Of a stretch of DNA of 45,574 nucleotides, positions 16,713 to 17,766 are shown in pieces. The position numbers and the translations under genes are program-made. Within the stretch, counting starts at the first letter, position 1, and each line of letters opens with the position of its first letter. The stretch is from Bacteroidaceae bacterium. Lineage in GTDB: Bacteria; Bacteroidota; Bacteroidia; Bacteroidales; Bacteroidaceae. The notes beneath the pieces were generated by a model. The model searched no databases, was not told the DNA's origin, and saw only the letters and a program-made list of their open reading frames with translations. Location of the stretch: the NCBI GenBank assembly GCA_017615835.1, contig JAFZZI010000010.1:1-45574 (forward strand), in the 5' to 3' direction.

Positions 16713-16835
16713 ATGCCAGTTATTGGCTGTTTCACTGACCAGGACGGCTCCGTCACGTTCAGCATCGCTAACCTGCCTCAAGGCATATACATTATCAAAT
16801 CCGAATCACTGACCTGTAAAATCCTCAAGCAATGA
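16713..16835 (+). pseudogene. Orphan fragment of a type IX-secretion-like C-terminal sorting domain
   Basis: This 40-codon reading frame, too short for most gene callers, ends with GIYIIKSESLTCKILKQ. That closely resembles the last strand pair of C-terminal sorting tails on Bacteroidota secreted proteins (GIYIVK...KILK). No secreted protein precedes it, so it is most simply the remnant of a deleted gene. Its TGA overlaps the ATG of the next gene in an ATGA arrangement. That leaves open a second role as a short leader ORF translated in series with it. The frame is open further upstream but without recognisable homology. Confidence 0.6.
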
Positions 16836-17665
16836 AACGAAACACCTTGCGTCACTTTCTGACATGCAGCATCGCAGCAGCATTGCTGTTTCTTGGCTAT
16901 ACGCCGGCATCGGCCCAGTATTACATGAACGTATTCAAGAAGAACGGCGAGACTGTCCAGTTTGAAGTGACTGAATTGGACAGCGTATCCTTCACTTCCA
17001 CAGAAGTAGCATACGAGTATGTCGATCTGGGTCTCAGCGTAAACTGGGCGACCTTCAACGTGGGTGCCACTAGGCCAGAGGCGTACGGTGACTACTTTGC
17101 CTGGGGCGAGACGGAACCATACTACGAGGCCGGCTACGCACAGGAGAATCCGCAAGCACACTGGAAAGATGGGAAATCTGATGGATACAATTGGTTCAAT
17201 TACAAGTGGTGCAACGGCACATACGATTCTCTGACAAAATACAATACGAAGAGTGATAAAGGAACGGTCGACAACAAAACCGTGCTTGACCCTGAGGATG
17301 ACGTTGCCCACGTCAAGTGGGGCGGCAGCTGGCGCATGCCGACCAAAGAAGAACAGTATGAATTGTTCAATAACTGCACCTGGACCTGGTACGACTCCGG
17401 CAACACAGAATTTAATGGTGTGGCCGGTTATAAGGTTACCAGCAATAAGGATGGTTACACAGACCGCTCCATATTTCTTCCGGCTGCCGGGTTCCGCGGC
17501 GGCACGTACCTCATCGACGGGGGGTCCTACGGCCTCTACTGGTCCAGTTCGCTCTACACGGAGAGCCCGCACGGCGCGTGCAGCCTCATCTTCGATTCGG
17601 GCAACCACGGCGCGGACAGCCTCGACCGCGGCTACGGTTTCTCTGTCCGGCCCGTTCTCCCGTAG
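16832..17665 (+). CDS. Secreted Fib_succ_major-type (C-type-lectin-like) protein with hypervariable-looking C-terminus
   Basis: This 277-residue protein has a signal peptide cleaved near ASAQ29. A short N-terminal beta module (NVFKKNGETVQFEVTELDSV) common in Bacteroidales surface proteins follows. From about residue 62 it carries a Fibrobacter succinogenes major paralogous domain: YVDLGLSVNWATFNVGA, GDYFAWGE, GGSWRMPTKEEQ, YWSSS and a final FSVRPV. The role is unknown; related folds are C-type-lectin-like and bind ligands. The last 57 codons (17492-17662) differ sharply from the rest: about 68% G+C over the first 51, no A-ending codon, and mostly NNC codons. That is the pattern expected of a retroelement-diversified variable region. 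The start overlaps the small ORF at 16713. Confidence 0.85.
   Translation: MKRNTLRHFLTCSIAAALLFLGYTPASAQYYMNVFKKNGETVQFEVTELDSVSFTSTEVAYEYVDLGLSVNWATFNVGATRPEAYGDYFAWGETEPYYEAGYAQENPQAHWKDGKSDGYNWFNYKWCNGTYDSLTKYNTKSDKGTVDNKTVLDPEDDVAHVKWGGSWRMPTKEEQYELFNNCTWTWYDSGNTEFNGVAGYKVTSNKDGYTDRSIFLPAAGFRGGTYLIDGGSYGLYWSSSLYTESPHGACSLIFDSGNHGADSLDRGYGFSVRPVLP
17492..17662 (+). other. Candidate variable region (diversity-generating retroelement target)
   Basis: Residues 221-277 of the preceding gene. In the 51 codons from GGG-TTC to GGT-TTC I count 36 ending in C, 12 in G, 3 in T and none in A, with 22 A among 153 bases. Runs such as TAC-CTC-ATC-GAC and GAC-AGC-CTC-GAC-CGC are what randomised AAC codons would give. 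The flanking YWSSS and FSVRPV framework residues are conserved in the domain family. Template repeat and reverse transcriptase are not in the window, so the assignment is inference. Confidence 0.5.
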
Positions 17666-17733
17666 GATTTGTCCTCCCCACCGGCTCAACAGGCCTCGAA
17701 ACACGCATTCATTCAGCCGCAGGTCGGCCTGAT

Positions 17734-17766
17734 GCAGGCGGGGTGGCAATACCAAAGCCACCCTGC
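17734..17766. other. Hairpin downstream of the candidate variable region
   Basis: GGGTGGC (17741-17747) pairs with GCCACCC (17757-17763) around a 9-base loop, extended by GCA/TGC across a bulge. No T-tract follows, so it is a poor terminator. It lies about 75 bases after the stop codon. Confidence 0.45.

Follow-up and report, generated by a model that had tools for sequence, protein, structure and literature searches.

The 3' end of an Lcl_C-like protein gene in a Bacteroidaceae draft genome is very probably the variable repeat of a chromosomal diversity-generating retroelement

Target genes with DUF1566 and Fib_succ_major domains are known from the diversity-generating retroelements (DGRs) of human microbiomes (PMC4159848), and remote as well as leftover DGR targets have been described (PMC4891356), so that the kind of locus reported here is already known. 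Phage DGR hairpins, as presented in PMC3240598, have stems of 7-10 bp and 4-nt GRNA loops and lie 4-34 bp from the variable repeat (VR), and the accessory gene type MSL is named with the Pfam family PF01624 (PMC10053308). Surveys that look for a VR beside a reverse transcriptase (RT) miss stand-alone targets, as is stated of its own approach in PMC8144416.

In the present case, a lone VR could be recognised by its codon composition, and both an intragenomic twin and a same-genus template confirmed it. The window, i.e., the whole stretch of 45,574 nt of DNA analysed, lies on contig C12 of the draft genome G000 (2.34 Mb, 32 contigs, 82% complete), the other contigs of which are cited below as C4, C22, C30, C31, and C32. 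We consider it very probable that the 3' end of one gene in the window is the VR of a chromosomal DGR, an assignment that rests on VR features and on a related template, and the best reading of this gene is that of a stand-alone DGR target, recently diversified together with a twin on C32. The features of the locus are the following:

16734..16835, + strand: 3' remnant of a partner gene, its 5' part absent; it matches C4 from C4 position 107, the match starting at window position 16734
16832..17665, + strand: target gene, an open reading frame of 277 aa with a signal-peptide-like N-terminus (by eye) and an Lcl_C-like C-terminal domain
17387..17492, + strand: 5' homogenised block, 106 nt identical to the C32 paralog; the gene bodies upstream differ
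17493..17631, + strand: VR core, with 39 substitutions relative to C32 between the identical blocks, plus a 3-nt length difference
17632..17677, + strand: 3' identical block of 46 nt, with the stop codon and ending 12 nt past it
17662-17674, + strand: VR-type boundary motif (IMH-like), GTAGGATTTGTCC, inside the 3' identical block
17714..17735, + strand: left outer arm of the downstream hairpin, from alignment with nine genus copies; the right outer arm of the relatives is missing in the window
17738..17766, + strand: retained inner stem of 10 pairs (one G-T) with a 9-nt loop, AATACCAAA, from alignment with genus copies

The repeat sits at the 3' end of a coding gene and is NNC-rich and A-poor, as DGR targets are. 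The 57 codons of 17492-17662 comprise 39 C-ending, 13 G-ending, and 5 T-ending codons and none ending in A; A makes up 22 of the 171 bases, and G+C is 67.8%. In codons 1-220 of the same gene, 39 codons end in A and G+C is 50.5%, which confirms the sharp contrast that the first-pass annotation had drawn between this tail and the first 220 codons. Its hand count over 51 codons stood as regards 36 C-ending codons, the lack of A-ending ones and 22 A in 153 bases, while the recount gave 11 G-ending and 4 T-ending codons and 66.7% G+C instead of 12, 3, and about 68%, being off by one codon. The lack of A-ending codons in the tail exceeds chance: among 3625 sliding windows of 57 codons, taken from six long frames of the window that include the first part of the target gene itself, none was free of them (minimum 2), and at the rate of these six frames (18.5%) 57 codons without an A-ending one have a probability of about 9e-6. 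The 153-base window with the highest G+C content in the whole 45.6 kb begins at 17480; by the criterion of fewest A the tail is not extreme, windows near 2256 having 19 A in 153.

The window protein scored 23.9 bits against Pfam Lcl_C (PF07603; 24.7 in a second search) over residues 156-275, below the cut-off of 34.9, a point counted against the VR reading, though 17 of the 18 aligned target domains match Lcl_C at E <= 0.01 (best 1.6e-9), and the domain is therefore called Lcl_C-like. Lcl_C is, we take it, the present name of DUF1566. The label "Fib_succ_major-type" given earlier to the gene holds for 2 of the 18 related domains at the same threshold, but the window protein itself has no match to Fib_succ_major (PF09603) at E <= 1. 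No Pfam family other than Lcl_C matched this protein at E <= 1 and no NCBIfam family at E <= 0.1, and a PDB profile search with the target domain returned no match at E <= 1. The framework residues YWSSS and SVRPV, previously pointed out as fixed in the tail, are common to relatives.

The best other match of the window VR within G000 is the paralog on C32. Outside the identical blocks, the two genes are different over most of their length, and the substitutions between them are distributed very differently along the codon: 18/20/1 at positions 1/2/3 in the VR, 17/20/50 in the first 183 aligned codons of the upstream body, where the usual third-position excess is found (50/87), and 0 in the flanking codons. 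Retrohoming would be expected to leave such a footprint, with faithful flanks and scrambled NN of NNC codons.

Similar stretches occur in 15 of 37 genomes of the genus at E <= 1e-10, the window's own being included in the 37. In the same genus, the Bacteroidaceae MAG G018 from horse faeces (JAKSIV010000056.1) carries on an 8-kb contig a cassette composed of a partner gene, a target gene with VR (642 aa), a hairpin, an accessory gene (177 aa), a template repeat (TR) rich in A, and an RT of 395 aa (loci L086 and L049 are the same G018 sequence); its small partner gene, which precedes the target, is intact (L049:1555-2040). Between the TR and the VR of G018, 24 of 26 changes fall at template adenines and the remaining two are the boundary-motif differences. 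When the window and C32 copies are placed on this template, which is related to the window VR and not cognate with it, 33 of their 39 differences lie at adenines and 6 elsewhere, the unchanged sites being 20 adenines and 143 others (Fisher p 3.6e-18); the 6 differences off the template adenines were counted against the VR reading. Mean entropy over 36 VR strings of the genus, i.e., those left after dropping duplicates and strings with more than 25 gaps to the template, was 1.45 bits at template-A sites and 0.69 elsewhere. Most other within-genome VR pairs show far more frequent differences at non-A sites and, judging from this, are older. The claim of the first-pass annotation that the gene "is or was" a DGR target is thus supported by the C32 copy and by the template adenines of G018, and its wording was right. 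Of what it had proposed to look for in the rest of the genome, the near-identical copy was found on C32, with differences mostly at the adenines of the related G018 template, while neither a template nor an RT cognate to the window VR turned up in the 82%-complete assembly.

The exact motif GTAGGATTTGTCC is found at two places in G000, the window and C32. The boundary differs between VR and TR, reading TAGGATTTGTCC in the window and TAGCACTTGTCC in the G018 template, and the two forms were assigned from sequence as IMH and IMH*, respectively. Among the 37 genus genomes, at least 10 have VRs with the exact 12-base TAGGATTTGTCC after the stop codon, a lower bound from the loci examined.

Further downstream, the C32 hairpin is full and the folding z of its tail is -5.2, against -1.7 in the window, where the outer 3' arm is absent, a difference counted against the VR reading; misassembly is possible at the window hairpin because the sharp change falls inside a repeated element. 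Among the tails folded, which are those with a recognisable anchor, z < -2.5 was reached by 31 of 51 VR tails and by 3 of 22 TR tails (L089, L099, and L098), so that the TR control is not clean. The RT-linked VR tails (L086-L130) have a strong hairpin (z < -2.5) in 16 of 19 cases; L096, L112, and L109 fail, and L112, which adjoins the RT, is probably a template at the threshold. By pattern match, an unpaired TACCCA-like stretch lies on the 3' side of an inner stem in 9 of these 16 strong hairpins. Ten genus copies, selected by their loop motif and scored on the structure of one of them, had 86.5% of cells paired and 7 pairs changed on both sides (reached in 4 of 500 shuffles), with a covariation score that 14 of 500 shuffles attained and no excess of further pair types (238/500). 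In this DGR family the long hairpin, which in some copies has a TACCCA-like bulge, may represent a variant; no description of a long TACCCA-bulged hairpin turned up in literature searches made without a bulge-specific query, which is no proof of absence. Boundary motif and hairpin together can help to list further DGR targets.

Six further copies in G000, three on C4 and three on C30, were considered as additional VRs and rejected. The exact motif is absent from all six and a marked hairpin from four (z -1.1 to 0.1), and they are therefore at most decayed VRs; the two with a hairpin are on C30 (C30:232661, z -3.5; C30:255714, z -2.8). At C4:205-2739 (L048) three tandem Lcl_C-like domains were observed, with Ig-like stretches between them (by eye); the boundary motif is inexact in all three, none is followed by a marked hairpin (z -1.1, 0.1, and -0.3), and these domains are perhaps fossil VRs. 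The left ends of C32 and C4 overlap exactly by 68 nt (suffix/prefix) inside the partner gene, and C4 probably continues C32 as its neighbour, in the order target, hairpin, partner gene, three-domain target. This join did not locate the core, since a search of C4 for an RT or accessory match returned none.

The 82%-complete G000, searched with the window VR and the G018 TR, yielded no TR cognate to the window VR, nor an RT cognate to it or close to the G018 RT, which was weighed against the VR reading together with the lack of an accessory-gene relative, and viral contigs searched for a cognate TR with one framework pattern gave no match. In the genus, the G018 RT is matched at E <= 1e-10 in 3 of 37 genomes, namely G018 itself, G024 (31% identity), and, through its prophage RT, G000 (26%). 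The G024 match is a 407-aa frame (G024:C26:227232-228254; L084) that may represent a second DGR type. Of the ten or more genomes with exact-motif VRs, four given as 90-98% complete (G001, G007, G016, and G027) have no close RT, which was counted against the VR reading, and because of them loss as well as incompleteness must be considered.

Three RTs are present in G000: one retron-like (below cut-off), one with weak family matches, and the RT of a prophage-type DGR. The retron-like RT (L012, C22:16.5-20.1 kb) was set aside as cognate RT, its NCBIfam matches being below the cut-offs; the best of them, far below cut-off, is a TIR-type antiphage RT, and L012 is possibly a defence locus. The RT at C31:28-32 kb was set aside with it, as its matches to retron, group II, and defence types are also below the cut-offs. 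The prophage-type DGR occupies about 95.3-97.6 kb of C31 (L014, L045) and has a VR at a 3' gene end, an avd-like ORF (likeness by eye, with no Pfam match), a TR, and a 423-aa RT; its TR and VR are 85% identical over 122 nt, with 16 of 18 substitutions at A, and we infer that it lies in a prophage.

As a stand-alone target, the window gene would depend on a template RNA rich in AAC codons, reverse-transcribed by the RT of the element with random bases opposite adenines. The resulting cDNA would replace the C-terminal stretch of the Lcl_C-like, probably secreted protein, copying the flanks faithfully and scrambling the NN of NNC codons, and the variable residues would form a ligand-binding face. 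The window copy, near which the assembly has no RT or TR, would share an unseen template with the C32 copy, and the cognate TR and RT would either lie in the unassembled part or have been recently lost. A related reading, which shares this origin and differs on present activity, is that the gene was diversified by a DGR whose RT/TR core has since been lost from the lineage, or that the truncated hairpin no longer supports retrohoming; we give it a considerable chance, somewhat below even. It draws on the contrast between exact-motif VRs, found in at least 10 genomes of the genus, and close RTs, found in one of the 37, on the outer arm missing from the window hairpin, on the apparent commonness of decay (the six C4/C30 copies without exact motif, four of them without marked hairpin), and on the Treponema denticola isolates that keep leftover targets without a core DGR (PMC4891356). 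Nevertheless, the identity to C32 over 152 flanking nt speaks for recent homing, C32 retains the full hairpin, and in a draft that is 82% complete a core such as that of G018, whose contig measures 8 kb, could drop out during binning.

The remaining explanations dispense with a dedicated element or look for it elsewhere in the assembly. The first-pass annotation had offered cassette exchange with paralogs as an alternative, that is, a mosaic made by RT-free gene conversion, and several paralogs do exist in G000; moreover, the identical 5' block extends well upstream of the start of the G018 TR/VR homology, although a longer template would give the same. Tracts converted from other paralogs would, however, bring changes at non-A sites, and a second alignment shows 34 of 53 template A sites and 6 of 150 non-A sites changed between the window and C32. 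The other paralogs compared depart from each of these two copies at 31-42 of the 145-150 non-A sites. This comparison disfavours the exchange, which we regard as very unlikely. That the tail is an ordinary G+C-rich domain under diversifying selection, without dedicated machinery, is in line with a framework common to distant members, but can hardly be credited when the template adenines of a related genome predict the variable sites and third-position differences number 1/39 in the VR vs. 50/87 in the gene body. As to the prophage-type DGR on C31, it is the sole one seen in the assembly with RT, TR, and VR, but the chance that it diversifies the window gene in trans is close to nil, since its TR matches its own adjacent VR with the adenine bias given above and is absent from the G000 matches to the window VR or the G018 TR, and its RT is 26% identical to that of G018.

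Beyond the window's genome, the G018 RT has relatives at 42 GTDB loci, mostly in Bacteroidales MAGs of ruminant or horse gut origin, and the weaker matches include Saccharibacteria; in the bacterial family they occur in 12 of 399 sampled genomes and 8 of 30 genera at E <= 1e-60, and three more loci (35-49% identity) are on viral contigs. A TR- or VR-like stretch was detected in 31 of these 45 loci (42 GTDB and 3 viral). In 17 of the 45, G018 being counted apart, an A-rich copy (24% or more) and an A-poor one are both present, and the 19 TR/VR pairs that these loci provide, one of which (L092) is aligned over 75 nt only, have 465 of 495 changes at template A, corresponding to 48% of A sites changed vs. 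1.1% of others. The order target, accessory gene, TR, RT recurs in the single-contig genome G115, which has three weaker copies elsewhere. At L096:5386-5980, the repeat adjoining the RT is A-poor and occupies the end of a target frame, while its own end is of TR type, and no accessory gene was found; this has the look of a recombination between VR and TR in which the template was deleted. The DGR target frame at L115:2663-4801 has a Ser/Thr kinase-like start (by eye) and a VR-like Lcl_C-type domain at its end.

Relatives of the accessory gene are present at 31 of the 41 RT loci examined. MutS domain I (PF01624) is matched by 19 of 26 accessory proteins at a permissive threshold of E <= 10, with 3.1e-4 as the best value, the G018 protein giving E 0.21, below cut-off, and a PDB profile search with the accessory protein returned no MutS among its matches, of which the best (E 0.17) is not meaningful. 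A phenylalanine, F31, is invariant across the 26 aligned accessory proteins and presumably corresponds to the residue with which MutS stacks on the mismatch. In sequence, the accessory gene may weakly fit the MSL type named in PMC10053308. At L114:2065-2823 and L115:4907-5620 the accessory domain is apparently fused to an Avd-like helical C-terminus (by eye), a fusion that, if real, would link two accessory types. It is conceivable, albeit rather unlikely, that the targets of this DGR family are marked by a long DNA hairpin, bulged in part, and that the MutS-domain-I-like accessory protein reads it, in which case a fold for mismatch or bulge recognition would have turned target-site reader; if true, such reading would explain how one core finds dispersed VRs like that of the window. 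For Bacteroidaceae of the herbivore gut, the locus ties probably secreted proteins to programmed hypervariation and provides a testable idea of target recognition.

Compared with the DUF1566 and Fib_succ_major targets of human microbiomes described in PMC4159848, the window gene is alike in having its VR in such a C-terminal domain and in the adenine-specific TR/VR differences, and unlike them in that neither RT nor TR accompanies its VR on the contig, the draft genome belonging to the genus of a horse-faeces Bacteroidaceae MAG. The BPP-1 DGR of a Bordetella phage shares mutagenic retrohoming and an IMH at the VR end, and it requires a downstream hairpin/cruciform (PMC3240598), a structure that the window has in part; in contrast to the short phage hairpins of that source, the aligned genus copies have about 22+10 pairs and a 9-nt loop, and that of the window starts 36 nt after the identical block. 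The relatives' accessory gene, located between VR and TR and weakly resembling MutS domain I, recalls the MSL type (PMC10053308), with the difference that no relative of it was found in the window's assembly. The Treponema denticola DGRs presented in PMC4891356 belong to an unrelated host and have HRDC as accessory gene, but, as proposed here, they include remote targets, together with leftover targets in core-less isolates.
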